Shown: in pieces, positions 10,654 through 64,000 of the stretch
Position numbering within the stretch: the stretch's first letter is position 1
How the letters are laid out: each line of letters opens with the position of its first letter
Origin: Bythopirellula goksoeyrii
GTDB taxonomy: Bacteria > Planctomycetota > Planctomycetia > Pirellulales > Lacipirellulaceae
DNA: 64,000 bases
Assembly: GCF_008065115.1 (NCBI RefSeq)
Contig: NZ_CP042913.1
Coordinates: 2,826,338-2,890,337 of the forward strand
Direction of reading: 5' to 3'
Position numbers and translations under genes: made by a program
The notes under the pieces: generated by a model
What the model was told of the DNA's origin: nothing
What the model saw: only the letters and a program-made list of their open reading frames with translations
Databases searched by the model: none

Positions 10654-10800
10654 AGTTGTTTCCTCTTTCCTTCGAGAGTCCAGTCAATCCCACAACAATT
10701 CGATTCACAGCAACATCAACAAAGGCTGTGAATTCAACACATTACATATGCCTAAGAAAGCCGTCCATGGTCTACCAATCAATCTCGGGCGGCGACTTTC

Positions 10801-14344: not shown

Positions 14345-14362
14345 ATACTGCGGAATCCAATG

Positions 14363-14609
14363 GTGTCTGCTGCAATAATCGTATGGCCCACACCAGACAA
14401 AACCCCGCCCGAATGGTTTGCTGAGTTCGAGGTGTCGCGAAAACCCACCCTGAAAGAACGGTTCCGCTATGGTTTCGTCCGCACCTATCGCCCTTGCTAG
14501 ACGATGCCCCGTATCGCTCGTTCGACTCGATGGAAGAATACCGGCAGTGGTGCGAAGAAAATCTCCCAGATTGGTTGGCTATGGTCGCGAAAGCAGCGCT
14601 GAGGCTTGA
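14363..14609 (+). pseudogene. Decayed remnant of a small gene
   Basis: Downstream of the PQQ-repeat gene, translated pieces look like protein but lie in different frames. From GTG 14363, one frame gives a run ending RYGF before a stop. A second frame gives LLDDAPYRSFDSMEEYRQW followed by ENLPDW. That peptide would continue as LGYG if one base were restored near 14578. The pattern fits a short planctomycete gene broken by at least two frameshifts. Product and function are unknown, and the reading relies on memory of similar peptides rather than a search. Confidence 0.4.
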
Positions 14610-14629
14610 GTCATGACATTCCCCCTTAG

Positions 14630-14650
14630 CCGGACCGCCACGCGGTCCGG
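14630..14650. repeat. GC-rich extragenic palindrome
   Basis: CCGGACCGC, loop CAC, then GCGGTCCGG: a perfect 9-bp stem with a 3-nt loop. It is followed at once by a second palindrome. It belongs to a set of CCGG-ended hairpins also found on the far side of the BlaR1/BlaI-type pair. Confidence 0.7.
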
Positions 14651-14656
14651 GATTTC

Positions 14657-14678
14657 CCGGAGGGCAGTGGCCCTCCGG
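14657..14678. repeat. GC-rich extragenic palindrome (CCGGAGGGC type)
   Basis: CCGGAGGGC, loop AGTG, GCCCTCCGG: a 9-bp perfect stem. A third small stem, CTAGGA/TCCTAG (14679-14696), follows and includes the end of the M56 peptidase gene. The same CCGGAGGG/CCCTCCGG core recurs at 17910-17930. It may act as a terminator for the converging transcripts, but no T-run follows. Confidence 0.7.
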
Positions 14679-14692
14679 CTAGGAGCGAAATC

Positions 14693-17461
14693 CTAGCGTT
14701 GAATCGGTGTCTTGTCTTCAAAAACGCCATTCTCATAGGCGTCATCGTCCAGGGCTTCGATCCCAATATCCAATTTCTCGTTTAATTTCTCAGGGTCCTC
14801 CGGCACAAAGACGCCATTTTCGTATGAATCACGGTCCGCACCATCTGCAGGGGGTGTCGCAGGAGTGAATTCAGTTGATTTCCGCGGGTGGGATTTTTTC
14901 TCATCGTCACTCGGTGGTGGGGATTGCATCAGTCTGCCCTTTGCTATTTCTTGTTCCTTTTGCATCCGCAATTCTAACTCCAACACTTCGCCTTCTTTGA
15001 GCTCGTGTGTGGGCAATGCATCCCTATCCTCTTCGGTGCGGATATTATCATACGTGGTAGCTTGCCAGCCCGGCTGGCCCTCGCTGCCCGGCACACTGGC
15101 ATAAAACAGATAGTTCCCCGCAGGAACTTGTTTCTCGCCGATGCCCTCCGGAGAGAATTCCACTATGTTTGGAGTGAAGTAATGGTGGTTGCGACGGGGC
15201 CGTGGCGAGGGATTCACAAATCCTTTGGTTGGCTTTTCAAAATTAAGGGGCTCACCTGTTTTGTCGTCAATCAACTGAATCCGGACGCGCCCGCCGCGAG
15301 TCATCAATAAATCAGGTGTCTCGGTCGTCTCACCGCGTTTTAGCGCGACACCTTCGATACCTTGTGTGACCCAGCCAGCAGTTTCAGCTACACATGAATA
15401 CTTTCCAGAGGGAAGCGACTCGAAACGGTAATTTCCCTCTTTGTCAGTTCGGGCTCCGGTGGTCTGGAAATTGAACTCCCATCCCCAGTCAGGGGTCATG
15501 TCACGTTGCAAGCGAACGTCGACATTTTTGGCAGGTTCGGGAGCCTTTCCTGCCTCCTGCGTGACCACTCGTCCCGTTAGCACAGCCCCGGGCTGCAATT
15601 CTACGTCTATACGACCCGGAATCTTGTCGATCGCTACCCGCTTCATGGCGAAGTCTGGATGCTTGACCCATAGCCAGCGGACCCAGGGTTTACCATCGTT
15701 TCCTGCGTAGGTTGACATGGCCGAACTGCCAGCCTGTTGGCTCTGCTCGAAATCACGTTTCATTTGTTCGGCATCGTAGGCAGCCAAATCGTCGATAGCA
15801 TACTCGCCATTCGAGTCCGTCATTGCGGTGTTGATGTCGCCTGGAATACCACGAATCCTAGGCAAGGTACCTGCACTAACCCGGGCACCGACGACTGGCT
15901 CCCCTTGTCCATCGACAATCCGTCCTCGAAGGGGTTGAGCTGGAGGCATCTGATGGACGTAGGCCTCGCCATGTCGAGCAACTTCTGAGGACATTGAATT
16001 TCCGACGAAACCTGGCACGCGATTTGGCTCTCGGGAAATCACTGTAATGACGCGAATATTCTTGGGAAGAAAATAGTTATTGTCCGGCAATCCATCGGGG
16101 AATTCTTTCTCGATATCGATCACATCTTTAAACCAATATCTTCCTTCAGAATCTGTCGCGGTTGAGAAAATCACTTGCGATTCTCCATCTATACCCCTAA
16201 AGCGAGCGGCATACACCTCGACTCTTGTGTTAGGAAGTGGCTTGCCATTCTCATTGACGCAAATACCGAAGATCGTATTTGGCTGACGATTCTCGTAGAG
16301 CTTTGAGAAAAGTTTGTTTGTTCTTTCCCAGGCAGTATTCTCCGCTGCAGGTGTTTCCTTTATTACAGGTTGAGTTTCCTCTGTCTCGGCTACCTCCGCT
16401 TGCGACTCAAATGTCGGCTCCGCCGGCGTCAAAGTCACCAGTGACAACCCTCCCGCCAGCCCCAGCAGCACAACCAAAGACCCTACCCACCACTGCCGTG
16501 AACAACTCCGCAGGATCGTCAGTTTTTCATCCAACAACAGCGCTAACCGCTGCTTGAGCTGCGAGCGGGTCTCCCACAGCCCCACCGACGAAGCCAATCT
16601 CGGCACGCGACTTGTACTCGTATAACGAGCCAACTCCACCAACTCCTCGGCATACACGCTGCGGCTGGTAAGCTCTGCGGCAGCGGTGTCGGCAAGCACT
16701 TCTTGGTCGAGTCGCACTCGGCGTCGCCATAGCCAAAAGAGTGGGTGCGCCCACAGCACAACCATCAGCATTCGCAGTCCGGCCATCAACGACAGGTCGC
16801 GATGTTGCAGGTGGGCAAGTTCATGGGCCAGCACAGAGCGTATCTGACCGGTGCGAGCTTGTTCGACCAACGTGCGCGGCAGCAAGATAACCGGATCGAT
16901 CAGTCCTACAGCAACCGCTACAGGCAGCTTGCTTAGCACTTTTACCGAAGGAATCGGTCTCTCCGCTGGTGTCAACTCAGTGAGTAGTATCTGTATCTTC
17001 TCAGGCGCCACCTCACCGACTCTTCGCAATCGCCGCACTTGCCATGCCCCTAGGGCAAGCCAGACAACGACGATTGCCGAACCAATCAAGTACAAATAGA
17101 TCGAAACTGCAGCCCAATCGATCTCGATAGGTTGCACCTCCGAGACCGTGCCTCTTGAGTTTTGGACAGACATGTTCTGGGCCTGCGGCGTTGGAAAATC
17201 TGTGATTTGATTTTCAGGCACATTCGTGATCAGAGTCCGCGTCGCAACCAATGGGGCAGGGGAGCGCAAATGCCAGGTGGACCAACTGGGGAGTGCGCAC
17301 AATAGGGCGAGCAAACCGAGACCACCCGCCGTCGCCCAGGCGAGTGCCATTCGTCGGGCGGGTTGACCCGCGAAGAGGCAAGCCAAGAGTTCGGCCCCCA
17401 GGAGCAGCGTCGCCAACAAGTAAAAATCTCCGAGCCACCGCGTAACTTCGAGCGTGTTCAT
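14693..17461 (-). CDS. BlaR1-type M56 metallopeptidase with C-terminal carboxypeptidase-regulatory-like domains
   Basis: A 922-residue membrane protein. Membrane helices lie at about 12-32, 40-58 and 117-139. A cytoplasmic zinc-peptidase segment has HELAHLQH (HELAH at 213-217), and another helix lies near 330-350. Instead of a penicillin-sensing domain, the outer part (about 400-830) holds several carboxypeptidase-regulatory-like beta-sandwich units (ICVNENGKPLPNTRVEV, IVDGQGEPVVGARVS). In BlaR1 systems ligand sensing activates the protease, which removes the BlaI repressor. The matching repressor gene is 3 bp upstream. The signal here is unknown, and beta-lactam sensing is not supported. Confidence 0.85.
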   Translation of the reverse strand: MNTLEVTRWLGDFYLLATLLLGAELLACLFAGQPARRMALAWATAGGLGLLALLCALPSWSTWHLRSPAPLVATRTLITNVPENQITDFPTPQAQNMSVQNSRGTVSEVQPIEIDWAAVSIYLYLIGSAIVVVWLALGAWQVRRLRRVGEVAPEKIQILLTELTPAERPIPSVKVLSKLPVAVAVGLIDPVILLPRTLVEQARTGQIRSVLAHELAHLQHRDLSLMAGLRMLMVVLWAHPLFWLWRRRVRLDQEVLADTAAAELTSRSVYAEELVELARYTSTSRVPRLASSVGLWETRSQLKQRLALLLDEKLTILRSCSRQWWVGSLVVLLGLAGGLSLVTLTPAEPTFESQAEVAETEETQPVIKETPAAENTAWERTNKLFSKLYENRQPNTIFGICVNENGKPLPNTRVEVYAARFRGIDGESQVIFSTATDSEGRYWFKDVIDIEKEFPDGLPDNNYFLPKNIRVITVISREPNRVPGFVGNSMSSEVARHGEAYVHQMPPAQPLRGRIVDGQGEPVVGARVSAGTLPRIRGIPGDINTAMTDSNGEYAIDDLAAYDAEQMKRDFEQSQQAGSSAMSTYAGNDGKPWVRWLWVKHPDFAMKRVAIDKIPGRIDVELQPGAVLTGRVVTQEAGKAPEPAKNVDVRLQRDMTPDWGWEFNFQTTGARTDKEGNYRFESLPSGKYSCVAETAGWVTQGIEGVALKRGETTETPDLLMTRGGRVRIQLIDDKTGEPLNFEKPTKGFVNPSPRPRRNHHYFTPNIVEFSPEGIGEKQVPAGNYLFYASVPGSEGQPGWQATTYDNIRTEEDRDALPTHELKEGEVLELELRMQKEQEIAKGRLMQSPPPSDDEKKSHPRKSTEFTPATPPADGADRDSYENGVFVPEDPEKLNEKLDIGIEALDDDAYENGVFEDKTPIQR

Positions 17462-17464
17462 GGC

Positions 17465-17866
17465 CTATACCTTCTTGTTTTTGCAGTGGGATCTTTCTTT
17501 AGCTTCCGCCAGCATCGCTTCCAGCTGAGCCAATTCGTCGGCAGTAATCTTGCGTTTTCCCAGCGCGTGGACGAGATATTCATCGAGAGCCCCGTCGAAC
17601 ACTCGGTCGAGAAAGCCGGTCGCCAGTTGGCGGAGCGTTTTTTCGCGGGTGATCGCGGGGAGATAGACGTAGGCTTTCCCTTCGCTGCGGTGAGTGACCA
17701 AGCCCTTCTGTTCCATTACTTGCAAAAGTGACAGCACCGTGGTGTAAGCCAGATCCTCCCCACTGGCATTTAGGGAGTCGCAAATCTCACGCACTGTAGC
17801 TTCGTCGTGCTCCCAGAGCACTTTGAGGGCTTCCAATTCACGGTCAGTGGGCTGAATGTCATTCAT
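17465..17866 (-). CDS. BlaI/MecI-family transcriptional repressor
   Basis: A 133-residue winged-helix repressor. It opens with PTDRELEALKVLW and has ATVREICDSLN as the recognition region, then YTTVLSLLQVMEQKGLV, all typical of the Penicillinase_R family. A C-terminal dimerisation helix follows. Two 18-bp dyads (17972-17989 and 18004-18021) lie 106-155 bp upstream of its start and are good candidates for its own operators, so the operon would be self-repressed. The M56 protease gene follows after 3 bp and presumably cleaves this protein upon signal. Confidence 0.93.
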   Translation of the reverse strand: MNDIQPTDRELEALKVLWEHDEATVREICDSLNASGEDLAYTTVLSLLQVMEQKGLVTHRSEGKAYVYLPAITREKTLRQLATGFLDRVFDGALDEYLVHALGKRKITADELAQLEAMLAEAKERSHCKNKKV

Positions 17867-17909
17867 CTCTGCTCTTTCTTATTCGATTCCTTCAGCCTCT
17901 GCATCCCAG

Positions 17910-17930
17910 CCGGAGGGCCACACCCTCCGG
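17910..17930. repeat. GC-rich extragenic palindrome (CCGGAGGG type)
   Basis: CCGGAGGG, loop CCACA, CCCTCCGG. The stem is the same as in the palindrome at 14657-14678, on the other side of the BlaR1/BlaI-type pair. Confidence 0.7.
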
Positions 17931-17937
17931 TCCATTC

Positions 17938-17959
17938 CCGGAGCCAAGGGTGGCTCCGG
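17938..17959. repeat. GC-rich extragenic palindrome
   Basis: CCGGAGCCA, loop AGGG, TGGCTCCGG: a perfect 9-bp stem lying 8 bp after the previous palindrome and 12 bp before the first BlaI-type dyad. It is a member of the same repeat family. Confidence 0.7.
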
Positions 17960-17971
17960 CTAAGGGATTGT

Positions 17972-17989
17972 CTACTGGTCGTCCAGTAG
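17972..17989. promoter_or_regulatory. Putative BlaI-type operator 1
   Basis: CTACTGGTCGTCCAGTAG is a dyad with a 7-bp half-site CTACTGG and its complement. A second, almost identical copy lies 32 bp away centre to centre, about three helical turns. Both lie upstream of the BlaI-family gene, as expected for self-regulation. Confidence 0.65.
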
Positions 17990-18003
17990 GTTCTTCGCTC
18001 ATT

Positions 18004-18021
18004 CTACTGGTTGACCAGTAG
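18004..18021. promoter_or_regulatory. Putative BlaI-type operator 2
   Basis: CTACTGGTTGACCAGTAG matches operator 1 at 16 of 18 positions and its dyad extends to 8 bp per arm. The pair with operator 1 suggests two repressor dimers on the same face of the helix, controlling the blaI/blaR1-like operon. Confidence 0.65.
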
Positions 18022-18061
18022 GTGTCAAGAAAGAATTTGAGAATTGTTCAGAAAAGTGTAG

Positions 18062-18143
18062 GCCGGAACAAGCCGTGCGCAGTTCCGGCAATGCGAATCA
18101 GATTGTGATGGCCCGCCGGAACAGCGTTAACGCTCGTTCCGGC
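18062..18143. repeat. Two GCCGGAAC-ended palindromes
   Basis: GCCGGAAC/GTTCCGGC frames two hairpins: 18062-18089, and 18115-18143. The second encloses the perfect palindrome AGCGTTAACGCT. They lie between the operators and the end of the nuclease gene. They differ in sequence from the CCGGAGG elements but share the CCGG-rich design, and could reduce read-through from either side. Confidence 0.65.
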
Positions 18144-18162
18144 TTACGAAGAACTCTAGCCG

Positions 18163-19458
18163 CTAACGCAGCTGGTTCGCCTGAGGTCTCGCGAGCAAGA
18201 GAAAACTGATAAGTAGCATGCAACCGGTAGCTGGTTCGGGAACAGGCGCGACCTGAACGCCCAAGTTATTGTGTTGCCGCTGCCAGATTAGATAATCTCG
18301 GCCATCGACGTCCCCGTCTCGGTCGGCGTCGCCAATGCCACGAGAGGCCCCGCTCGGGGTTCCGAAGCCAGTTTGCCAAGTGCTGAGGTCTGCCCCGTCC
18401 ACACCACGGCTGAAATTGAAATCGCTATCGGCAAAATCGAAGAGGCGAAAATCAACTACCACGGGCAAGTGATCGAAGTTGGATGAGGAATTCCCGATGG
18501 TCACATCCAGCCGTTCCAAGCCTGTAGCTAATCTTTGAGCGGAAGTCATACTCACGGTATTGAGTACGAACTTGTTGCCCACGTCCAGGGCGCTGTCAGA
18601 ATAGATTATGTAGTCGAGCCTTCCTGGATCGAAGGAGGAAAAGTCATTTCGCCATGTATAGTCAGTTGAGCCTGTTGCGTTGTGGATCGGGTGGGGATCC
18701 GTGAGAGTGCTCCCATCCCAATCGGGAGGCGAGTCGCTGCCGTAGAACCATTCTTCGTAGATGTTGCCATCAAGGAGCGTGTTGAGTGGTCCCTGTCCAC
18801 CAACAATATTGAGATCCCCCAAAATGGCAAACGGCGTACCTGGAGCTAGATTCACAAGCCCCCCTGGTGTGCGCGCATCATGAAGCCAACTGACGATCGT
18901 GTCCGACTGCTGTTGTCGGAGGGCATCCTCACTGCTCCCTACTCCGCCACAACACTTATAGTGGTTGTTCATCAAGTAAAAATCAGAGGGAAACTGATCG
19001 TCAGGTAAATCCACCAACGCAATGGCTTGGGATTTGTTGCCTCCAGGATTCGTATTAGTACGTTTTAGCGACAGAGGATATTTGCTAACGATCACATTGT
19101 CGCCACCCATGTGGACATACCACGAGGCACCACCAGCGAGCGGAGCGACGGTATTCATGAGGTTCAGAAGCTCAAGGTCCGTTTTTGGAGGGTCTTCACC
19201 ATAAGGAAAGCCAATCTCTTGAAGATTCAGAAGATCAGGATCAAGCGCATTCACTACCCGTGCAAACTTGGTAGCCTGCACAGCATCGCGATCGGGGAAG
19301 ATGCTGTCCCACAACACATTGTAAGACACCACGCGCAAATCGGTCGTCTGCTGACGATCAATGAATGTCCCCGTGTTGCCCAACGCACAATCATGGGGTT
19401 GTTGCCAAAAAATACAGGCTAAGAATCCCCAACTAGCAAACCTACTCAAGATATTCAT
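18163..19458 (-). CDS. Secreted endonuclease/exonuclease/phosphatase protein with dockerin-like segment and PEP-CTERM tail
   Basis: A 431-residue protein with a signal peptide (FASWGFLACIFW) and an EEP-fold catalytic domain (about 40-345). Catalytic motifs are VSYNVLW, NLQEIG (metal-binding Glu), GDLNIVGG (Asp/Asn), LDYIIY and the final SNFDHLPVV with the catalytic His. A dockerin-like calcium-loop segment follows (DFNFSRGVDGADLSTWQ, DADRDGDVDGRDYLIWQ). The last 25 residues contain PVPEPATG plus a hydrophobic stretch, the PEP-CTERM sorting signal. The substrate may be nucleic acid or a phospholipid/phosphodiester; motifs do not decide. The protein is probably exported and anchored or processed at the cell surface. 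Confidence 0.88.
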   Translation of the reverse strand: MNILSRFASWGFLACIFWQQPHDCALGNTGTFIDRQQTTDLRVVSYNVLWDSIFPDRDAVQATKFARVVNALDPDLLNLQEIGFPYGEDPPKTDLELLNLMNTVAPLAGGASWYVHMGGDNVIVSKYPLSLKRTNTNPGGNKSQAIALVDLPDDQFPSDFYLMNNHYKCCGGVGSSEDALRQQQSDTIVSWLHDARTPGGLVNLAPGTPFAILGDLNIVGGQGPLNTLLDGNIYEEWFYGSDSPPDWDGSTLTDPHPIHNATGSTDYTWRNDFSSFDPGRLDYIIYSDSALDVGNKFVLNTVSMTSAQRLATGLERLDVTIGNSSSNFDHLPVVVDFRLFDFADSDFNFSRGVDGADLSTWQTGFGTPSGASRGIGDADRDGDVDGRDYLIWQRQHNNLGVQVAPVPEPATGCMLLISFLLLARPQANQLR

Positions 19459-19616
19459 CTAATCCTATTCTGCATATCGAACCTGGCTTAGTGACTGAGC
19501 CTCTTTGTATTTGAAAGATTGCACTCCCTATTAGGCACATTGTACTCACCAGTCGCATTTGCGATACTGACCGGCTTCATTCTAACCCGTTAAACACAGT
19601 AGTATTTACCGCAAAT

Positions 19617-23315
<3,699 letters not shown>

Positions 23316-51443: not shown

Positions 51444-52769
51444 ATGGCCGACGAGCTGTTTCCTTTGCCCCTAACGCCTTTTGAATTCTACTACTGGTGC
51501 GACGATCGCCCAGAGTATCCTACGACGTTTCCAATGGAACTCGTGTTTCGGGGGCCTCTGAATCGCGAATCGCTGGAGACTGCGATTCACGTTTGTCTTG
51601 ATCGCCATCCGCTGTTGGCAGCGAACGTTGATGATTTAGGTAGATATCCCCAGTGGATCGCCGCACAGGATAAGTCACTCACTCTCGATTGGCGTGACGA
51701 TTTGACATCGATCGATATTGCAAGAATGCGTTTCATGGATCTTACGAAGCGAATCGGCGTGCGTCTCTCCGTGAGGACGACCGTTGAGCGCAGTCGATTG
51801 GTGTTGCAATTTCATCATGCCTGCTGTGATGCCCTAGGTGCTTTGCAGTTTGTTGCTGACTTACTGGTGGCTTACGACTCAGCAGTAGCAGGCGAAAATC
51901 CAGTATCGAAGCTAGAGCCTCTGGAAGCAGACCGGCTGAAGATGCGTGGCGACTATGGACTCACAGAAGCTGGTTATACTCCGAATTGGGGGGATGCCTG
52001 GCGGACTGCTCGATTTTGGATGGGTCGCATGATGTGCCGACCAGCCGTAGTAGCCTCGCCGCGTAACGGAGAACTGAAACCAGCAGGTAGTGCTGACCTC
52101 GGATATGTCACGCACGTATTGAGCAAGAAAGATCGCAATAGCTTGCTGCAGCGGGCTGTCGAGGCGGATTCGAGTATCAATGATCTGTTGCTTGCAGAGT
52201 TCTTAGTGACGCTAAAGGAGTGGAACCAGGAGTGTGGTAGTAAGAATCGCCAGTTCGTCGTGAATGTGCCAGTCAGTTTAAGATCCCGGAGCGACCAACG
52301 ACTTCCCGCAGCAAATGTGCTGGGTTTTTGGTTCTTGCAGCGCAATCCTAATGAGTGTAGCAACGCGACAGCTCTTCTGCCTGGAATACACAAGGAGTTG
52401 GAGGCTGTTAAGAAGTGGCGATTACCGCTCTTTTTCATCGGTGGTCTGGGATATGCCTACCAGTTTCCTGGCTTCATGCGCCGAGTCTTGCGAGGAAATA
52501 AATCCTTCGCTACGGCGGTACTCAGCAATTCAGGCAGAGCCTTAGCAAGGTTGCCCCTTAAGCACGAGCATCGAAAGTGGATTTCGGGTGGCGCGGTCTT
52601 GGAACGAATTACTGGAGTGCCACCAGTCCGGCCGGGGACGCGGGTTTCTATAATCATCGCCAACTATGCCTATGACACGACTGTCAATCTGCACTGGGAC
52701 CAACATGAACTTGATGAAACGGCGGCTCGCGAGTTGTTGGCTGCCTATGTGAGGCGGATTAAGGGATAG
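51444..52769 (+). CDS. Condensation-domain-like acyltransferase
   Basis: A 441-residue protein of the chloramphenicol acetyltransferase-like superfamily, as in NRPS condensation domains, PapA and wax-ester synthases. The catalytic motif is HHACCDA (H124-H125, D129), the superfamily's HHxxxDG with Ala for the last Gly. A second conserved part around 270-300 (FVVNVPVSLRSR) matches the structural core. It could join an acyl chain from the neighbouring synthase to an alcohol or amine. Its last 11 bp overlap the end of the operon's last gene on the other strand. Confidence 0.75.
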   Translation: MADELFPLPLTPFEFYYWCDDRPEYPTTFPMELVFRGPLNRESLETAIHVCLDRHPLLAANVDDLGRYPQWIAAQDKSLTLDWRDDLTSIDIARMRFMDLTKRIGVRLSVRTTVERSRLVLQFHHACCDALGALQFVADLLVAYDSAVAGENPVSKLEPLEADRLKMRGDYGLTEAGYTPNWGDAWRTARFWMGRMMCRPAVVASPRNGELKPAGSADLGYVTHVLSKKDRNSLLQRAVEADSSINDLLLAEFLVTLKEWNQECGSKNRQFVVNVPVSLRSRSDQRLPAANVLGFWFLQRNPNECSNATALLPGIHKELEAVKKWRLPLFFIGGLGYAYQFPGFMRRVLRGNKSFATAVLSNSGRALARLPLKHEHRKWISGGAVLERITGVPPVRPGTRVSIIIANYAYDTTVNLHWDQHELDETAARELLAAYVRRIKG

Positions 52770-54448: not shown

Positions 54449-56068
54449 TTACTTTACTTCCTTTCCTACAAAATCTTGTAGTAGCCAGCCATCTTCAGTT
54501 TGATTGACAAACCCGAAGCCGGAGGCGATGAAATTGGGGAGGACATTACTATTTGGGAGTTGGGCTAAATTGAGAACGTGCTGTTCACTCTCAGGATCTC
54601 CAAGGAGTTGGCCCAAGTCGACTTCACCCCGCTTGCGAAGACCTTCGTATATTGGACGCAACCCAGCGGCACTCGGAGAAATGTGCGTTCGGATCGTGTT
54701 TTCAGCGAGATGGTCTTTCAATTGACGTTCAAGTTCTTCACTGTGGAACTGCTTGGTGCTTGGTTTGTCTTCAAGAAGGGCTATAAGAGCGTCTTCAGAG
54801 GTGGCAACAAAAAAGTATCCATGGGCTGCCGCCAAAGAGTAATTTGCAAGGTCGGGGCCCATTGGCTGGCCCACGTCGGGATCGGTAATGGCATCTTTGA
54901 AAACCCACAATTCAAATGAGCTCGCGGACTTTTTCTCTACACCTTTGTCCGGGCCAAACATCCGCTGGAGGGCATCGACCATCCTTTCTTCATCGGAGAT
55001 CCTTACGGCATAAACGGTTGCCGTGAGACCATCGTCGAGAGTTTTTGAGAGCCGCAGCACTGGACCGGCTTGTATTCCCATGAGGGCCATGACATCGACC
55101 TGGGGACCCGTTGGCTCCTTGAGAATGTCATCTAGAACAGCATCAAATGTTCCTTCGACTTCCTCGGCATAGGCTGCATCAAAGTAAGAACCATAGCCAG
55201 CAAGCGCACCTGCGAGGTTCCATTGGATCCGTGACACAGAGTCGATCTCGCCAGGGACCCATTTGGGAAGTGGGTCGTCTCGGAGCGACGCGAAATCAAG
55301 TAATCTCGAAGCTTTCTGCCGTTCACCAGGTGCATAGATGAAACACTGATTTTCAACATCATATTCGTTTGTGCTCAGAGTCATCGCTCCACCTATGGCC
55401 TGAACAACCTTGAATCCGTTATCGGCGAGCAACTGCCAAGTTTGTCCCAATTCCTCGGAACCAGACCGCATGGCGAGCGATCGGAATGCCCAGGGCTTCA
55501 GGTACCAAGTGAGCATTGCCGCAGTAGAATAAGAGTGTTCTGCAACGGTTGCAAACTGTTCGTTTGACGCCAAACTCTCGGACGGTGCAATGGCAAATTC
55601 CTGCCGATTGGTAATGCCGAGTATGCCTTCTTCGAGGAAGTAAGTGCGGGAAGTCGCCTGCGCTCGTAACTCGGCGACGAGTTGGGTAGCTTCGTCCTTG
55701 TGGCCGGAGACGTCTACCAACAGCAGAAAACCTACGTCATCTCCCAGTGGCGCCAGCGCCCAGCACGCTTCCCCCGAGGCGATGTTAAGGAGTTGCTGCC
55801 AGCTTATGCCGAGGAGTGATACCTCGCTTCCCGAACTGATCCGTGTCGCTTCATGAAATGCTTTTCTAAAGTCAGCAAAGTCTTCGCTTTGCCATAGGTG
55901 AGCGAAACTCGTCGCGGACCATTGTGAGTCGAACTCTGTGAGATCCGGCGTAGCGATGAAGACAATTGCATCAGCTGGTACGTAAGCGGTAAGCAAAGAT
56001 TCGCGCGCGAACGCAGACAGCCCCGTAAAGACTATCACAACATAGAGTAAACTGATGAAGGCTTTCAT
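54449..56068 (-). CDS. Secreted protein of unknown function, DUF3352-like
   Basis: About 539 residues from the ATG at 56066-56068; a GTG 12 bp upstream would add four residues. A signal peptide (FISLLYVVIVFTGLSAFA) is clear. The mature part shows repeated units of about 200 residues in the style of planctomycete DUF3352 proteins (YVPADAIVFIATPD, GVEKKSASSFELWVFK, AAHGYFFVATSEDALIALL). No enzyme motif is seen. It follows the enoyl-reductase-like SDR by 15 bp and belongs to the operon that begins with the giant synthase. Confidence 0.72.
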   Translation of the reverse strand: MKAFISLLYVVIVFTGLSAFARESLLTAYVPADAIVFIATPDLTEFDSQWSATSFAHLWQSEDFADFRKAFHEATRISSGSEVSLLGISWQQLLNIASGEACWALAPLGDDVGFLLLVDVSGHKDEATQLVAELRAQATSRTYFLEEGILGITNRQEFAIAPSESLASNEQFATVAEHSYSTAAMLTWYLKPWAFRSLAMRSGSEELGQTWQLLADNGFKVVQAIGGAMTLSTNEYDVENQCFIYAPGERQKASRLLDFASLRDDPLPKWVPGEIDSVSRIQWNLAGALAGYGSYFDAAYAEEVEGTFDAVLDDILKEPTGPQVDVMALMGIQAGPVLRLSKTLDDGLTATVYAVRISDEERMVDALQRMFGPDKGVEKKSASSFELWVFKDAITDPDVGQPMGPDLANYSLAAAHGYFFVATSEDALIALLEDKPSTKQFHSEELERQLKDHLAENTIRTHISPSAAGLRPIYEGLRKRGEVDLGQLLGDPESEQHVLNLAQLPNSNVLPNFIASGFGFVNQTEDGWLLQDFVGKEVK

Positions 56069-56083
56069 CGCAGAACTCACGGT

Positions 56084-56848
56084 TTATACATGGACTTGCG
56101 CGCCGCAGTCGACAGTAAGGGTTTCCCCCTGAACCATGTCGCTCAAAGGGCTTGCCAGGAACAGCACCGCATTAGCGACATCTTCTTTCTCAACAAAGCG
56201 ATCGCCAGTCATACTGCGCCACTTACGCCCTTCGAACATCATGTCGGCGTAGGGAAGATTCGAGGTGGAGTCGGTAGCTACCAAACCAGCTCGAACTATA
56301 TTGACATTGATTCCACGATCACCGAGTTCAAGTGCCAAGTGGCGCGCGAAGCTTTCCAATGCCGCCTTGGAGCCACCGACGCAGCCATACATTGGAACTG
56401 CCATATTCGCCCCGTGACTGGAAAGCCCGATCACTTTTGCTCGCCCTGGCGACTTTTCCAAGAGTCGTGATGCGACTTGTACCAGTTGAATCATGGCGAG
56501 GACGTTCGTTTTCATGGTGCCGACGAAATTTGTAGGGGTGATCGACATCATCGAGCGGAATCCGCCAGAAGCGGCGTTCGAGACGACTATGTCGAGCCGC
56601 CCAAAGTGGTCCTCGATGAATTCGATGAGCGATTCGATGTCGTCCCGCTCCGAGACATCAGCTTTCACTACCGCGACACGCCTGCCGAGTGCTTGGATTT
56701 GTTCGGCCACTTTGTCGGCGGCTGTACGAGAGGTGCAGTAATTGAGGACAATATCGGCACCAGCCTCTGCCAATCGCATAGCACAAGTAGCGCCGATGCC
56801 ACGGGAGCTGCCGGTCACGAGAGCTACGTTTCCGGTTAGGTCGATCAT
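56084..56848 (-). CDS. SDR-family enoyl-ACP reductase-like protein (FabL type)
   Basis: A 254-residue short-chain dehydrogenase. The cofactor loop is TGSSRGIG (residues 12-19) and NAASGG follows. The catalytic tyrosine and lysine are separated by six residues (YGCVGGSK), as in enoyl-ACP reductases; ordinary ketoreductases have a three-residue gap. FabL-type enzymes reduce the double bond of an enoyl chain on a carrier protein. The giant synthase has no enoyl-reductase domain in the visible part, so this gene could supply it in trans. Its ATG overlaps the stop of the PPTase gene as ATGA. Confidence 0.85.
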   Translation of the reverse strand: MIDLTGNVALVTGSSRGIGATCAMRLAEAGADIVLNYCTSRTAADKVAEQIQALGRRVAVVKADVSERDDIESLIEFIEDHFGRLDIVVSNAASGGFRSMMSITPTNFVGTMKTNVLAMIQLVQVASRLLEKSPGRAKVIGLSSHGANMAVPMYGCVGGSKAALESFARHLALELGDRGINVNIVRAGLVATDSTSNLPYADMMFEGRKWRSMTGDRFVEKEDVANAVLFLASPLSDMVQGETLTVDCGAQVHV

Positions 56849-57615
56849 AGTTCGTTTCTCGAAAGAGTTTGTGGTACAGAAGTCGAAGGAATAGTTACGA
56901 GTGCATCATGATTGTCGAAATGCGATTTAGGCAATTTGTCGAGTCGCTGATAGGTGGCGACGGCAGCTATCTGCCCTCGGAATCGCCAAACGCGCACCTT
57001 GCAACGATCGCTAATGTCTTTGCCACGGTAGAAAACGATGATGCCATCAGGTTCTGGACAGATCTCGACGTTGCGCGGTGCAAAAGATTCGCCGTTGTGA
57101 ACGGCCTTATAGACAGCCTCTTTCATCGCCCAGATATCGGCGACGGTCAGATGGTCTTTGTTTTTGTGCAGCAACGCGATTTCGGTATCTGTGAGCCAAC
57201 TCCTTTCGAACCCTGCACTCAGAGATCGCATCTCGACCAGATCGACCCCTACGGAGACTCCGGATCGATTGGTACCACCCACGAGTACAGCGTCGCACGT
57301 GTGCGATATCGACAACGAATATCCAAGTCGATTTTCTCCAAACTTGATATAGGGTCGAACTCCCGACGAAACATTGTTGCTGCAGATCGTTATCTGTGAT
57401 GGAGCCGTAAACCATGCCGTACAGTGCTGAGCCCGCAACAGTCGTTTCGCGAGGATGCGGCCGGCAAGAAAAGTGTTGCGGCGGACATCCGAACGAAAAG
57501 TGCGCCACGATTCGAGTTCGTCCTGTGAAAGCCAGTCCGTACCAGTGGTACTTCTTTGAAGCTGCAAATCGGAAAACGGCGCGTAGCGGAGATCGCATTG
57601 GGCGGAGACGATCAT
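56845..57615 (-). CDS. 4'-Phosphopantetheinyl transferase
   Basis: A 256-residue Sfp-type enzyme. The magnesium-binding motif is SVGVDLVEM, the second core motif is WAMKEAVYKAV, and an earlier ISHTCD segment precedes them. It transfers the phosphopantetheine arm of CoA to the serine of carrier domains. The three carrier domains of the protein just upstream are the obvious targets. Both ends overlap neighbours by ATGA, so it is translated with them. Confidence 0.93.
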   Translation of the reverse strand: MIVSAQCDLRYAPFSDLQLQRSTTGTDWLSQDELESWRTFRSDVRRNTFLAGRILAKRLLRAQHCTAWFTAPSQITICSNNVSSGVRPYIKFGENRLGYSLSISHTCDAVLVGGTNRSGVSVGVDLVEMRSLSAGFERSWLTDTEIALLHKNKDHLTVADIWAMKEAVYKAVHNGESFAPRNVEICPEPDGIIVFYRGKDISDRCKVRVWRFRGQIAAVATYQRLDKLPKSHFDNHDALVTIPSTSVPQTLSRNEL

Positions 57616-60600
57616 GAGGTTTCGCCTCCGACACGAATCGTACGGTATCCTATGGTTTCAAGAATAGGAGTTCCATCGACTCCGTAGAGCGTAAAGTCGA
57701 ACTTGCTGTGCCGGGCGTCGCGAGATCGGAAAAGGTAACGTACCATGCAGACTTCGTCCGGATGAGGCTGGCGTGCCCAGCGCATCTGCTCGAAGCCGTG
57801 CGGCACTTCTAGGGCACCACCGAATTGGAGGAACAAGAAACTACCGCAGCAGACTAAGCAGGCATCAAGCACCGCGGTGGGTAGAATCCACCCGGAATCG
57901 GAACGTGGACCGGCTAGTTCGGCCAACGGGGGAGCGACAATTTCACCCCAGCCACCCTCGTACTGAATTCCGTAGCTTTTTAGGCATCGCAGTCGAGAGC
58001 CATGATAGATCAGGGAGTCGTCAGAATAGGCAAAGGGATGCATCCCTAAGGCGGGTTTACTTGCCGTAGAAGGAGCCAGTGGAGCGGGGGTGCCAAAGTA
58101 TACCGCGGCTCGGACATGAACTCGGTTTGGATCAATGACCTGGCCGGCACGATTGCGGAACTCGCTGGTGAGCTGCGTTTCGACCGCATTCCCGTTGATG
58201 GAAAGATGGACTTTCGTTGCAATTGGGTCGTCGGTACGGAACATAAGGCCGTTGATGATTTCGACGTCGCGGACTTCGGCGATTTGTTGGTCTGGTTGAG
58301 AGAGGACTGCCGCTTCCAAGACGGTTTCCAATCCGATCACACCCGGCAGGAACGGGCGCTGCTTTAATAGATGTTCGACAAGGAAGGGATCGTGAGTGGG
58401 ATCAAATGTGACTTTCGCGAGGCCAGAACCATCGGGGTTCGTATCGAGCGAGTCAATCAAAGGGCGGTCTGTATCAGGGCTTGTCGATGGTTGGGGTTGA
58501 GCAGTAGGAGAAACCGATGATGGAGGGTCGGCACACATAATCGAATAGGGATAGAACGACTTTTCGAAATAGTCGTCGGCGATGAGGACCTCGGATTCAG
58601 GAGCACCAGCGCGGATTTCCTCAATCATGTGCTCGATACCTTCCTCGGGCTGCATAAACTCCATCTTGAAAGAACTCTTGGTGATGTCGACGGCATCGGC
58701 GAGCAACGCCATGCCGAAGCGATCCCAAGTTTGCCAGTGGAAACAGGTGGTGGCACAATCGGGACGCTGCTTACGGTACCAGTCGCACATCTTGGCAAGC
58801 ATTTCGTTGGCTGCCGAGTAATCACTCAGCCCATTTCCTCCATAGCGTCCGCTCAAGGAACCAAATGCTAGGAAGTACCGCAAAGGATCCTTCATTGTCA
58901 GGCGCATGAGTGCCGCAGTTCCGTCGGCTTTGGGACCGAATGTGAGACGAAGGCGATCACCGACACGACTCTCAAAACGGGCCGCTTTGGCATACCCGGC
59001 TCCGTGGATGACTCCTTGAATGGGTCCATCTATACGACGGATTTCGTCTAATACCTTCTCAAGAGAGGCTTCATCGGTAATGTCGCAACTATGGTAGTGG
59101 GTTTCGACACCAGCCTCGGCGTATTTACCGAGAACTATTTCGATTTCACGAGCCTTGCGGATGCGGCCCCAATCCTCTTCAGGTGATCGTCCGGCAGCAA
59201 TAGCCTCGCGGACGATTGCGGCCTTGTATTTCTTCACCTCTTCTTCACTGCATGTCAGCCAGGGGGCTGTCTTGTCGGGCGCGGGACTCTTGCCAATCAT
59301 GTGGATCTTGAGTCCATAGCGTCGAGCAAGCATACACGCAGCATAGGAGGTGATTCCTCGACCACCCCCCGTGACAACCCACGCACCGCCAAAGGGTACA
59401 TCACGTTTCGGAAGTTCTTCGATTGGAGCGGTGTAGATCGTTACAGTCTGTCGATTGCCACGTGACCAGGAAACTTCTACTTCGGGCGCGTCAGAGGCAA
59501 GTTCAGCGCAAATCGCAGTGGCGAGATCGGTAGGTGTTTCCTCCGCAGGGCTGTCTATTACTTTCACGCGAAACCGGCTGTGCTTGTGCCGGGAGTCTTC
59601 GACATAGACGCTCTTTAGCAAGCCACAGAGTGCGCCGCTCTCGGGTGCTTTCGCTTGGTCCTTGAAGCCAAAGTCACCACCCAGAGAGGTAACTGCCACG
59701 AGATTCGCCGGTTCGTTGAACGGTAATTCGGAGACTAACTGGAACCATCGCTGCGTCAATTGAAACGGCAAATAGACGCCTCGTTGCATACGTCGGCGGA
59801 ATGTCTCAGCAGTTTGGAAATCGCTGGCGTCGGTGTCACGGGCAGTAAGCAGGAACAAGTTTCGAGCCGGTTGTGATTTCCAAGCGGATTCTAAGGCGGC
59901 AATTGTGGTTTCCGAGTCGTCATTGACGGGAAGTACATGCACCGTGATGCCTTTGGAAGTGAGTTTGTCGCGTAAAGCCAATGCGTCGGCGTTGTCACCG
60001 AGGATGAAGGCGGGGCCCGTGATTCCCGGTTCTTCTGGAGAAACTGTGGACAATGGAGCTGGGGTCATGCGGAGTACATGACGCGAGGCAATCTGCCGAG
60101 GCTTGCGAGTGAGATACTCGATGCGCTTATCGGTGCGGAAATCCTCAGCGATCGCTTCGACATGTTTGGGATAAAAGCGATTGTGGTAGGCACGGTCAGT
60201 AACGAGGACCTCGCTATCGGACTTTTCGGCGTAGAGTTCTCGCAAGAACTGCCGGAGACCTTCCCTCTTTGGCATGAGTTTGAGTCCCGTCGTGTTCTGC
60301 AAAGCAGAACGGGTTTCCGGTCGGTACGCCATGCCGACTTCATCCCACGGATGCCAGTGGAAACCTACTGCATGGCAGGAAGGACGCTGGTTGCCGTACC
60401 ATGAGACGAGCTTGCAAAGCATGTCACTTGCCATGCAGTAATCGACTTGGCCGTTGCTGCCGAAGCGTCCGCTGACAGAGCCAAAACCAATGAAGTAGCC
60501 GATGGGATCCTCGCGAGTAAGCTGCATGAGATTCCATGCGCCGAGGACTTTTGAATCGAAGGTGGCCTGCACGTCTTCAGGTCGTTTCTTTTCCAGTCGG

Positions 60601-63600
60601 CAGGACCGTTCGATTCCTGCACCATGAAGAATCCCCTCGATGGGGCCATGCTCGCGGCGAATTGATTCGAGAACACGACTTAAGACAGCACGGTCGGCTA
60701 CGTTGCAAGTGTGATACGTAATGTCGAGTCCCGCGTCGGCAAATGCACGCAAGTTTTGGTCAATTTCAATTTGCTTCTGGACACGGTCCCAGGCTTCGTT
60801 AGGTTTGTCATTCGTCTCGCGAGCATGCAAGATGGTTTCACTACGCAGGGCAGCACGGCCGGCTTCGTCGAGATTGCGCCAAGCGGGGTCGATCTTAGGC
60901 ACAGAACTGGTACCTAAGAGATGTAACTTCACGCCAAATCGGCGTCCAAGCTCCATGGCACATTCGGCTGTGATACCACGCGCTCCTCCGGTAACAATCC
61001 AGTTGCCATGAGGAGGATTTTCAGGCATCTCCTGAGCATCGGCTTCACGAGGAATTGCCAGTTGAAGATAACGTGCGCCGTGGACATACGAGACCTCGTA
61101 GTCAGGTGTACGGACTGCCAGCTCACCGCAGATGAATCGGGCTATTTGGTAGGGTGCCTCGTCAGCTGGGAAATCGATGGCTTTGGCGAGGAACGAGCGA
61201 TTGCCTCCCATGTGGTTCACTTCGAGATAGAGCGCTTTGACCAGCCCCGTGAGTGCACCAGTAAATGGCAAGGGCGCGTCTCCGCAGAAGCCGAAATCTC
61301 CAGTACAGTTGGCGAGAGCAACGAGCGTACACTTGTCGAGCCATTGCCCTGCGGATGCCAGTTGTACCCAGCGCTGGCAGAGGAAAAATGGCGCCAGAAC
61401 TTGTGATTCGTAGTTGCGCTGCCAAGTGGCAGTGTCGAAATAATCGTCGCCCTTGGTGTCACGCGATGACATCAGGAATAGGTGCATGACCGGCTGGTCA
61501 TCACAAAGTTGTTCCAGAGTATCAACGGCAGCTTGGCGAGATGCGAGTGATTTGAGTCGGTGAACTTTAGCCCCCGCATTTTCCAGCTTCTCAGAGAGGG
61601 CATCGGCGGACGGATTATCTCCAATCACCAGTGCCGGGCCGTTCAGGGTGGGCATTTCAGTTGCGTCGGGAGGCCATGCGATATCGACTAGTCGCATCAC
61701 AAAACGTTCGGCCATACCAGGCTCATCACCTAAGTCGTATGGCTTCACTGCGAATTCGGGACTTTTCGGTTTTGCTTCCTTTGACGTGGTCGCGGCGTTT
61801 TGAAAGTCATCGAGACTAAAGCGAGCGAATTCTTTCTCAATTGGCTCGTGGGCGACGCCACTGTATATGCCCAACTCGCCAGTATTATGGTCGATGAGTA
61901 CGCATAGTTGGTGGTCAGTTTGTACTCCGTAGCCGGTAAGCCCCATCTGCAATTCTTCGGTGGAATACGACGATCCGGTAAGAAAGCGTTGCATAGCTTT
62001 CAGACGATCAGCAGAAGTGCCGGCAATCGCGCCCACATGCTTGCTGTGATTGGCAGCCACGACGAGCTTGTCTTCGATGATCTCTAGAGATCCACCGGTA
62101 CATTCAATGCAAGTTGGCAAACGGTCGGCGGCACTTAGCACCATATTCCATGAGTTTGATTGAGAGGCTTCTTGCAGTTGGGCAAGGGCGGACGGTACAT
62201 CGGCCGCCTCGGACAGTAGTAGCTGCGTGAGCAGAGGATGCCGTTGCGGTGTGCTCTGGTTGGTGCCAAGAATCATACCGCTAGTCACAGCAAGTCCTTT
62301 GGCATTGAGCCCGGATAGTGCGCCAGCACAGCCGGCGTACGTGACGGAGATAGAAGCAAAGCCATTCTTCGGCTGGCGAATTTGAACAACTGGCACTAGA
62401 CAATCGGCTAGTCTTGAGCCCTGAGGCCTCTCGTCGCGAAGACCGTGGCGGACAGTTCTTCCGTTACGCTCGACTTCCACAGCGAACTGAATCGAAGAAC
62501 TGCCGAGTTCTGCAAGCATCGCCAGGTTGAGGGCGACAATGTTCGCTACCGGTACCTGAATAGCATCGGCAATGCCTTCCAGTTCTGCCAACTGATCTTC
62601 TGTGAAAGTCTGTTCGGGTTCCCCGGCAAACTTTGTCCATGAAGAGGCCACTTCGGATGTTGCCATGTCTGCTAAGCGATACAACGCGCGACGAATCTCT
62701 GAGCCGAACGACTGACCATGCTTGACACCCATTTCGTAGGCAGAACCGGCAAGCAGCATTGTGCGAATTGCCTCGTTGGAGTGGGCAACTGTGACCTTCG
62801 ATTGCCCGGCCGTTTGCACAACGGGAGCGACTCCCGCTGGCTCTGGAGTAGGCACTACGGGAGTAGGTGCGACGAATGCTGGTGCCGAGCTATCGAAAGA
62901 TTCTTCCGTGGCGGGAGTGGGGGCCAAGTTGTTGGTCAAATACGAGACCACATGCCGCAATGTTGGGAAATCGTCGAGCGTTAGGTTTTCATCTGGAGTG
63001 ACGTCGAAATACTCCTGGAGCTCGCCGAATAGCTGGGCCTTCTTGATGCTGTCGATTCCCAGATCCGCTTCCAAGTCGGCATCAAGTTCGACCAGATCGG
63101 CCGGATAGCCAGTCTGCTCAACGACAAAGTTGACGAGGAACGCTTCGAGTTCGGCAGTGTTGGAACTGGACTCGGTCGTAGGTGGAGTTGGAGCAGCGGC
63201 AGGTAGAGCAGCCATGCTGGCCACAGGGGGCTCAGGCATAGGTGCCGGTGTAGTTGGCGTGTCGTAGGTGGCATTCTCCGATGGCGCGGACGAGGTCGTA
63301 GTTCGTGCGAGGAAATCGACCACGTGACGCAAAGTCGGGAAATCGTCGAGAGTGAGATTCTCATCTGGCGTGACATCGAAATACTCTTGCAGCTCGCCGA
63401 AAAGCTGGGCTTTTTTGATGCTGTCGATACCCAGATCGGCTTCCAAGTCGGCATCGAGTTCGACGAGCTCGGGTGGGTAGCCGGTTTGCTCGACGACAAA
63501 GTTCACTAGGAATGCTTCCAGCTCCGCAGTGCTTGTATTGGAAGTAGGAGTTGGCGTGACTTCTGCGGGTTCTGGGGACGCTGCCTCGTAGGCGGGAGTT

Positions 63601-64000
63601 GCAGTAGGTACCGGGGTGGACGTGGTTGTAGTCCGTGCCAGGAAGTCGACTACATGTCGCAGAGTTGGGAAATCGTCAAGTGTGAGATTCTCGTCTGGTG
63701 TGACATCGAAATACTCTTGTAATTCGCCAAATAACTGGGCTTTCTTGATACTGTCGATCCCCAGGTCGGCTTCCAAGTCGGCATCGAGTTCGACCACTTC
63801 CGGCGGATAGCCGGTCTGCTCAACTACGAAATTTATTAGAAATGCTTCCAGATCACTCGAATCGACACTTGAGCTAGCATCGGGAGCTTCCATGACTTGA
63901 ACTGCGCTCTCGACAGGCTGAGAGGCGAGTTGAGTCTCGACAGCGAACCCTTCTCCCACTTGCCACATATCCGAAGTACGAGGTTCTGAGACTTCCGCTG
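57612..64000 (-). CDS. Giant multidomain synthase: 3 ACP, C45/AAT-like, 2 KR, DH (N-terminus beyond window)
   Basis: The frame stays open to the right edge and the ATG at 63968 is probably internal. Counting residues from there: ACP1 39-111, ACP2 149-221 and ACP3 273-345, each with DLGIDSIKKAQ (Ser73, 183, 307), separated by Pro/Thr linkers; a C45-peptidase/acyltransferase-like domain (396-715); KR1 (structural half 775-975, catalytic 988-1245); KR2 (1318-1510 and 1528-1790); and a double-hotdog dehydratase (1835-2112, His1866 and Asp2035). Carrier domains of this type resemble those of polyunsaturated fatty acid synthases such as PfaA. Ketosynthase and acyltransferase domains are presumably upstream. 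KR2 has YSAAN and TGGGRGIT, so it should be active. The stop overlaps the PPTase ATG. Confidence 0.88.
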   Translation of the reverse strand, partial: AEVSEPRTSDMWQVGEGFAVETQLASQPVESAVQVMEAPDASSSVDSSDLEAFLINFVVEQTGYPPEVVELDADLEADLGIDSIKKAQLFGELQEYFDVTPDENLTLDDFPTLRHVVDFLARTTTTSTPVPTATPAYEAASPEPAEVTPTPTSNTSTAELEAFLVNFVVEQTGYPPELVELDADLEADLGIDSIKKAQLFGELQEYFDVTPDENLTLDDFPTLRHVVDFLARTTTSSAPSENATYDTPTTPAPMPEPPVASMAALPAAAPTPPTTESSSNTAELEAFLVNFVVEQTGYPADLVELDADLEADLGIDSIKKAQLFGELQEYFDVTPDENLTLDDFPTLRHVVSYLTNNLAPTPATEESFDSSAPAFVAPTPVVPTPEPAGVAPVVQTAGQSKVTVAHSNEAIRTMLLAGSAYEMGVKHGQSFGSEIRRALYRLADMATSEVASSWTKFAGEPEQTFTEDQLAELEGIADAIQVPVANIVALNLAMLAELGSSSIQFAVEVERNGRTVRHGLRDERPQGSRLADCLVPVVQIRQPKNGFASISVTYAGCAGALSGLNAKGLAVTSGMILGTNQSTPQRHPLLTQLLLSEAADVPSALAQLQEASQSNSWNMVLSAADRLPTCIECTGGSLEIIEDKLVVAANHSKHVGAIAGTSADRLKAMQRFLTGSSYSTEELQMGLTGYGVQTDHQLCVLIDHNTGELGIYSGVAHEPIEKEFARFSLDDFQNAATTSKEAKPKSPEFAVKPYDLGDEPGMAERFVMRLVDIAWPPDATEMPTLNGPALVIGDNPSADALSEKLENAGAKVHRLKSLASRQAAVDTLEQLCDDQPVMHLFLMSSRDTKGDDYFDTATWQRNYESQVLAPFFLCQRWVQLASAGQWLDKCTLVALANCTGDFGFCGDAPLPFTGALTGLVKALYLEVNHMGGNRSFLAKAIDFPADEAPYQIARFICGELAVRTPDYEVSYVHGARYLQLAIPREADAQEMPENPPHGNWIVTGGARGITAECAMELGRRFGVKLHLLGTSSVPKIDPAWRNLDEAGRAALRSETILHARETNDKPNEAWDRVQKQIEIDQNLRAFADAGLDITYHTCNVADRAVLSRVLESIRREHGPIEGILHGAGIERSCRLEKKRPEDVQATFDSKVLGAWNLMQLTREDPIGYFIGFGSVSGRFGSNGQVDYCMASDMLCKLVSWYGNQRPSCHAVGFHWHPWDEVGMAYRPETRSALQNTTGLKLMPKREGLRQFLRELYAEKSDSEVLVTDRAYHNRFYPKHVEAIAEDFRTDKRIEYLTRKPRQIASRHVLRMTPAPLSTVSPEEPGITGPAFILGDNADALALRDKLTSKGITVHVLPVNDDSETTIAALESAWKSQPARNLFLLTARDTDASDFQTAETFRRRMQRGVYLPFQLTQRWFQLVSELPFNEPANLVAVTSLGGDFGFKDQAKAPESGALCGLLKSVYVEDSRHKHSRFRVKVIDSPAEETPTDLATAICAELASDAPEVEVSWSRGNRQTVTIYTAPIEELPKRDVPFGGAWVVTGGGRGITSYAACMLARRYGLKIHMIGKSPAPDKTAPWLTCSEEEVKKYKAAIVREAIAAGRSPEEDWGRIRKAREIEIVLGKYAEAGVETHYHSCDITDEASLEKVLDEIRRIDGPIQGVIHGAGYAKAARFESRVGDRLRLTFGPKADGTAALMRLTMKDPLRYFLAFGSLSGRYGGNGLSDYSAANEMLAKMCDWYRKQRPDCATTCFHWQTWDRFGMALLADAVDITKSSFKMEFMQPEEGIEHMIEEIRAGAPESEVLIADDYFEKSFYPYSIMCADPPSSVSPTAQPQPSTSPDTDRPLIDSLDTNPDGSGLAKVTFDPTHDPFLVEHLLKQRPFLPGVIGLETVLEAAVLSQPDQQIAEVRDVEIINGLMFRTDDPIATKVHLSINGNAVETQLTSEFRNRAGQVIDPNRVHVRAAVYFGTPAPLAPSTASKPALGMHPFAYSDDSLIYHGSRLRCLKSYGIQYEGGWGEIVAPPLAELAGPRSDSGWILPTAVLDACLVCCGSFLFLQFGGALEVPHGFEQMRWARQPHPDEVCMVRYLFRSRDARHSKFDFTLYGVDGTPILETIGYRTIRVGGETS
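62934..63854 (-). repeat. Three nearly identical carrier-domain repeats
   Basis: ACP3 (62934-63152), ACP2 (63306-63524) and ACP1 (63636-63854) differ at only a few residues over about 73. All three share LDADLEADLGIDSIKKAQLF and the segment through FDVTPDENLTLDDFPTL. The DNA is clearly more varied at synonymous sites, so selection on protein rather than recent copying keeps them alike. More copies may lie beyond the edge. Confidence 0.85.

Follow-up and report, generated by a model that had tools for sequence, protein, structure and literature searches.

An isopenicillin N acyltransferase-like (C45) domain within a recurrent planctomycete KS-CLF synthase family and its likely loss of catalysis in the Bythopirellula lineage

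Introduction

Polyunsaturated fatty acid synthases of the PfaA type have the order KS-AT-ACPn-KR, without a CLF or a C45 domain. The heterocyst-glycolipid (hgl) synthases of "hglE-KS" clusters use a KS/CLF pair and have a 4'-phosphopantetheinyl transferase (PPTase) and a thioester reductase (TR) as partners. We know of no C45 domain in hgl proteins, nor of an Ntn acylase serving as a release domain in a type I synthase. In isopenicillin N acyltransferase (IAT), a C45 enzyme, the Cys freed by self-cleavage is the nucleophile; Ser can act as the Ntn nucleophile in other families, and we take the Asn-His motif of C45 proteins to be part of the oxyanion region. The accessible text on IAT describes a separate 40-kDa proenzyme that cuts itself between Gly102 and Cys103 (PMC2692852). 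Among related planctomycete systems, the available portion of one report gives a single hglE-KS cluster in a planctomycete (PMC13190842), and the accessible text of Shulse and Allen 2011 (PMC3098273) describes secondary-lipid synthase Types I and J as Pfa-like clusters in planctomycetes, Type J being a pfaD homologue followed by KS-MAT-ACP3-KR. The word "penicillin" is absent from the main text of the latter paper, and in the portion available a KS-KS-AT-ACP-C45-KR-DH chain was not seen.

Here we analyze such a chain in Bythopirellula goksoeyrii, in which a C45 domain is embedded in a megasynthase rather than made as a separate proenzyme and, at this locus, is without its Cys. An original prediction made from the DNA alone had called the arrangement unfamiliar, and we likewise found no description of a C45/AAT domain in such a synthase in the open literature, subscription papers lying outside the search. 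The architecture is undescribed as far as searched; iterative KS-CLF synthases themselves are known.

Results

The window, meaning the whole stretch of 64,000 nucleotides that was analyzed (G000:C1:2826338-2890337, where G000 is the B. goksoeyrii genome), ends within a large synthase gene. One open frame on the minus strand (57612..64000) encodes the C-terminal 2128 residues, and the sequence to the right of position 64000, which the original prediction had proposed obtaining, supplied the N-terminal KS, the CLF-like KS, the first ACP and the AT. The whole gene (G000:C1:2883949-2895144) is complete at 3731 aa in one unbroken frame. Using Pfam profiles and homology-based domain assignment, we read the full protein as KS (residues 10-430), second KS (490-900), ACP (974-1051), AT (1185-1480), three ACPs, C45/AAT, KR, KR, and DH. 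In the window part, all on the minus strand, PF00550 matched three stretches, namely the second ACP of the protein (63633..63851, residues 1653-1725), the third (63285..63524, residues 1756-1835) and the fourth (62937..63164, residues 1880-1960); PF08659 matched two, the cores of the first KR (60318..61040, residues 2590-2830) and the second (58698..59420, residues 3130-3370); and PF21089 matched one, a PKS-type DH (57615..58490, residues 3440-3731) whose His and Asp motifs were placed by eye. Together with the NF040521 match described below, these profiles confirmed the predicted series of three ACPs, a C45-like domain, two KRs and a DH in the visible part. All four ACPs carry the carrier-serine motif GIDSI.

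The KS of the window synthase has its Cys and both His residues; we label the second KS "CLF-like" because Glu replaces the Cys. With regard to what defines a type I iterative KS-CLF synthase, the KS Cys/His/His set was found in 32 of 32 synthases and a second KS without Cys in 31 of 32; since the KS residues are intact throughout, the synthases themselves are not decaying. Searched with the window part only (about 2118 aa), the PfaA model TIGR02813 matched partially in three stretches, best over the ACPs, with 431 bits against a cut-off of 1010. The predicted likeness to PfaA holds as a relationship, KS, AT, tandem ACPs and KR being shared in one chain, but not as membership: the window synthase adds a CLF-like second KS, a C45 insert, two KRs and a PKS-type DH, and layout comparison did not find the PfaA domain order in it. 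The hgl-type synthases can be likened to it in having KS/CLF, PPTase and thioester reductase in common.

The C45/AAT-like domain, with a predicted Ntn-hydrolase fold, occupies 61779..62783 on the minus strand (residues 2009 to about 2330-2343), with the core profile match at 61920-62747 on the same strand (window-part residues 408-683). NF040521 ("C45 family autoproteolytic acyltransferase/hydrolase") scored 89.4 bits on the window part against a cut-off of 85 and 94.6 at the same site in a whole-genome search, which gave three further genomic matches, one of them below the cut-off. The Pfam AAT model PF03417 reported nothing for the window copy when the window part and the whole protein were scanned; at the homologous site it exceeded its cut-off of 23.2 in all five synthases scanned (L044, L208, L209, L210, and L211). 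L044 also lacks the Cys, so the silence of this model in the window is not simply due to a missing Cys. A PDB profile search with the window domain and 13 relatives retrieved isopenicillin N acyltransferase (1.2e-14). An AlphaFold2 model of the window domain built from a 14-row alignment (pLDDT 78, pTM 0.83) had as its best Foldseek match in the PDB the IAT structure 2x1c (E 1.5e-17, TM 0.76; 2x1d is a further IAT entry), with NAAA and acid ceramidase ranking after it. A model of the Cys-bearing domain of L060 (AlphaFold2, pLDDT 87) again matched 2x1c best (TM 0.69). The C45 domain of the window synthase is real, and its modeled fold is of the IAT Ntn-hydrolase type. Domain search and structure prediction, the checks that the original prediction had named, thus found a C45/AAT-like fold between carriers and reductases.

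At the position of the family's catalytic and cleavage-site Cys, alignments place Ser2105 (codon 62493..62495, minus strand) in the window synthase, with Ser-Ser at the Gly-Cys site. Ser is found here in all three genus members read (the window, G402, and G413). The window copy keeps Asn-His (as NHS); Arg-Asp-Glu replaces the neighboring Asn-Glu-Asp motif, a site that varies across the clade, and the Arg-x-Asp-Asn motif is degraded, its Arg and last Asn being gone. Across eight synthases (the window, G402, G413, G477, G485, G444, G472, and G464), Ser occupies the nucleophile position in seven and Asn-His is present in six. The Cys-bearing synthases keep Gly-Cys, Asn-x-Asp (mostly NED), Asn-His and Arg-x-Asp-Asn with few exceptions; like IAT, they have Gly-Cys at the processing site, an Asn-Trp-Asp-like motif and Asn-His.

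A KS-CLF tree of 34 synthases, made by a quick method and with several long branches, contained 14 with the Cys and 20 without. Seventeen of the 20 form one clade that includes the window (SH-aLRT 97); those outside it, G152/L072 (Gly) and G640 (Thr), stand separately, and three changes suffice to explain the distribution of the Cys. Within the window clade, the residue at the nucleophile position is Ser in the window, G402, G477, G485, G472, G464, G515, G205, G381, and G327, Ala in G444, Met in G506, G509, G339, and G121, Val in G333, and Glu in G625, the alignment being loose in G625, G640, and the rows of family f2. Of the 14 Cys rows, 13 have Gly just before the Cys, and G542 has Asn.

We compared evolutionary rates using branch lengths on one fixed topology for 26 of the 34 tree rows; L044, L069, L072, G553, G534, G590, G542, and G640 were excluded because they are divergent or isolated. 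The summed C45/KS branch-length ratio was 4.41 for the rows without Cys (17 rows), 4.11 for the 7 rows around the window and 5.92 for 9 rows of family f2; in two Cys-bearing groups it was 1.26 (5 rows) and 1.53 (2 rows). Between the window and G402, identity was 90% in the KS, 91% in the KR, 77% in the DH and 64% in the C45 domain, the least conserved of the seven domains compared; in the Cys-bearing pair L041 and L062, it was 71% in the KS, 50% in the AT and 66% in the C45 domain. Pairwise Nei-Gojobori estimates of dN/dS over six domains gave the C45 domain 0.13 to 0.23 in eight pairs without Cys, the top value in every pair, and 0.042, level with its neighbors, in the sole close Cys-bearing pair (L041 and L043); these figures are rough because six of the eight pairs lie within family f2 and share members and because dS is mostly high. 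In the least saturated pair without Cys (L048 and L203, dS about 0.4), the C45 domain had 0.176 and the other five domains 0.02 to 0.09; the contrast was weaker in L198/L199 (0.23 versus 0.11 to 0.21). Selection on the domain is relaxed rather than absent, since dN/dS stays well below 1.

The architecture recurs across planctomycete genomes, the comparison that the original prediction had called for. An even sampling of the phylum (392 genomes) gave a C45 match at 1e-5 in 68, of which 13 have it in frames of at least 1700 aa. Among 296 genomes of the order, 77 had a match at 1e-12, and in 36 the frame holding it reached 1300 aa or more; the layout was read in all of these 36 but G600, G636, G635, G566, G608, G519, G560, and G489, with G496 read as L070, which agrees with it in frame length and motifs. 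Three of the 43 genomes of the window's family have the match in such a frame, all from the window's genus (G000, G402, and G413, the last in two contig pieces). A scan of genome contigs with the window's own C45 domain gave no match. In a pattern-based scan with a Cys-type alignment, 11 of the best 80 of 201 relatives lay in frames with synthase domains, nine of these 11 being titled as planctomycetes and two just as "bacterium." The complete frames read follow KS-CLF-AT-(ACPn)-C45-KR(1-2)-DH(1-2), with one or two extra ACPs ahead of the AT in the window, G402, G413, G485, and G444. The KS-CLF synthase with a C45 domain is a recurrent family, so far found in Planctomycetota.

Two layout variants were seen. 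The G553 synthase (L206:3499-14172) has a doubled KS-CLF pair ahead of the AT and C45 domains. In the five synthases scanned with Pfam (L044 and L208 to L211), no PF00550 match was reported and the C45 domain lies close behind the AT; these synthases must either receive their carrier in trans or have one that profiles do not recognize.

Next to the window synthase lie genes for a PPTase that would load the ACPs (56845..57615, minus strand, PF01648), homologues of which adjoin related synthases, and for a FabL-like SDR (56084..56848, minus strand), a probable trans-acting enoyl reductase whose best NCBIfam model is FabL NF005975 (251 bits, below the cut-off of 328). Of 40 synthase loci, the window's own among them, 38 have a homologue of this SDR, the remaining two being contigs of 12.9 and 14.9 kb. 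Farther downstream of the synthase are a frame of 543 aa (54452-56080) with no Pfam match at 0.001 and, on the opposite, plus strand, a condensation-domain-like acyltransferase (51444..52769, PF00668), homologues of which lie close to some of the related synthases. On the upstream side, beyond the window, genes encode a thioester-reductase-like protein (PF07993), an MMPL transporter, a YtnP-like metallo-hydrolase, an acyl-CoA-ligase-like protein, an FAD oxidoreductase, and a fusion of a luciferase-like monooxygenase with an O-methyltransferase. From these surroundings, we infer that the synthase probably makes a reduced lipid for export, with the reductase as the probable means of release. The metallo-hydrolase (L004:3731-4585) is nearest to YtnP quorum-quenching lactonases, below the model cut-off, and its homologues adjoin many of these synthases; the monooxygenase (L004:7388-9520; best model MupA/Atu3671, below cut-off) and the O-methyltransferase share one frame.

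A TR was linked to the synthase in 19 of 19 loci without Cys that were read over at least 20 kb. It was also linked to at least seven Cys-bearing synthases (G553, G542, G600, G369, G291, L070/G496, and G590), so the presence of a TR alone does not explain loss of the Cys, and the idea that the C45 nucleophile was lost only where a TR takes over was rejected. No linked TR was found in five loci of at least 20 kb (G321, G283, L060, L062, and G670), all of which keep the Cys. L072 (Gly) shows no TR, but on a contig of only 10.9 kb, and at L069 the upstream side ends with the contig; G216, L061, L063, L068, L071, G575, G570, and G534 were too short for linkage to be read. A whole-genome search of 20 genomes found a TR-like match in 19; in G321 and G283, the TR-like gene lies elsewhere in the genome, and G670 has none.

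A gene for a GH3-family amide-synthetase-like protein adjoins six Cys-bearing synthases (G216, G321, G283, L060, L062, and L063) and none of the synthases without Cys that were read. In 26 genomes searched, five were positive for GH3, all from one family, and in G291 and G152 the gene is not beside the synthase; G152 has its no-Cys synthase elsewhere in the genome. Given this confinement to one family and the G152 case, GH3 is one lineage's habit and not a test of C45 function, and as a general partner it was rejected. The GH3 gene of G152 is 5 kb away from a gene for a stand-alone C45 protein, in a neighborhood of arginine-biosynthesis-like genes (assigned by eye).

Discussion

Taken together, the account that we consider likely is that of an iterative KS-CLF-type fatty-acyl synthase whose C45 domain once offloaded chains, is dead in the window lineage and is kept there structurally, with a TR releasing the chain. 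The KS and AT would extend the chain on the tandem ACPs, the two KRs and the DH would reduce and dehydrate it, and the separately encoded FabL-like enoyl reductase would complete the cycle. The ancestral C45/AAT insert would have been a chain-offloading Ntn acylase or acyltransferase acting on the neighboring ACPs. In the window lineage, the nucleophilic Cys has been lost together with some of the catalytic environment around it, selection on the domain is relaxed yet purifying, and the domain probably persists as a noncatalytic structural or docking element, the linked TR most likely releasing the chain as an aldehyde or alcohol. As judged from sequence, the window copy has most likely become a pseudoenzyme that is retained for a structural role. 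The original suggestion of chain release or of coupling to an amine is not supported for this copy, which has Ser for Cys and RDE for NED and is the least conserved of the domains compared between the window and G402, and we judge release by it unlikely on nucleophile, motif and rate evidence. Running counter to a dead domain are the Ser at the nucleophile position in seven and the Asn-His in six of the eight synthases compared, the NF040521 cut-off that the copy still passes, and the weak rate contrast in L198/L199.

The window copy might instead be active with a Ser nucleophile, cutting itself before Ser2105 and offloading the chain, with water or an amine as acceptor. The Ser shared by the three genus members and by seven of the eight synthases listed would fit such an enzyme, as would the retained NHS, the intact fold of the predicted model and a dN/dS of 0.13, well below 1. 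We nevertheless consider it quite unlikely, as the position is filled by Ala, Met, Val, or Glu in sister synthases, NED has become RDE at a site that varies in the clade, Arg-x-Asp-Asn is degraded, and C45 branch lengths are four times those of the KS in the seven rows around the window. Another reading is that the domain never offloaded product but was an editing hydrolase that clears stalled or wrong chains from the ACPs and is dispensable in some lineages. Its place directly after the ACPs, or after the AT where no ACP was found, is compatible with this, and Cys-bearing copies occur with and without a linked TR, as expected if C45 is not the sole release step. No sequence feature separates editing from release, however, and the GH3-like gene beside six Cys-bearing synthases fits a released free acid, so this reading seems rather unlikely. 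It is very unlikely that the domain is chiefly a hinge or docking element between the synthase halves in every lineage, the Cys forms being active only incidentally: it does hold the same position in all layouts read and stays even after loss of the Cys, but in Cys-bearing synthases its catalytic motifs are nearly invariant and it changes only 1.3 to 1.5 times as fast as the KS.

On our preferred account of an offloading domain that died in the window lineage, the live question lies with the Cys-bearing kin rather than with the window copy. In these relatives, the C45 domain is probably an active acylase, and for those that keep Gly-Cys, Asn-x-Asp, Asn-His, and Arg-x-Asp-Asn, release or joining to an amine would be the best reading of the sequences. 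The GH3 neighborhood would fit a route in which C45 sets the chain free as an acid and GH3 then couples that acid to an amine. The Gly-Cys pair in 13 of 14 Cys rows also leads us to suggest, tentatively, that the Cys-bearing domain may cut its megasynthase mid-chain at Gly-Cys, the freed Cys then passing the ACP-bound chain to water or an amine, with the window clade having lost this step and its synthases working uncut. If so, the cut synthase would work as KS-CLF-AT-ACP-C45alpha plus C45beta-KR-DH. Such a cut is the most surprising possibility raised here, should family-like maturation hold, and it poses the question of whether a megasynthase can cut itself mid-chain and still work. With complete-looking and burnt-out branches side by side, the family offers a natural experiment on a megasynthase gaining and losing an offloading domain, and it marks a planctomycete lipid class for which no study was found in the open literature.

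C45 relatives also occur outside synthases. Four stand-alone genes (L064:2042-3610, L065:9569-11104, L066:9527-11092, and L216:16330-17820) encode proteins of about 500 aa with an ACP-like N-terminal part and a Cys-bearing C45 domain. Those of L064, L065, and L066 are the closest to the embedded domain among the stand-alone C45 proteins seen in the best 80 of 201 matches of the contig scan, and that of L216 is likewise among the nearest. The carrier Ser is absent by eye from all four ACP-like parts, and PF00550 reached 13 bits in L065, below its cut-off, and was not reported in the other three. By sequence, these proteins resemble a carrier-plus-C45 unit that exists separately from the synthase. 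At L100, a stand-alone C45-like gene (9710-11176) lies less than 3 kb from a 2357-aa frame (13905-20975), and the locus matches KS, AT and KR queries.
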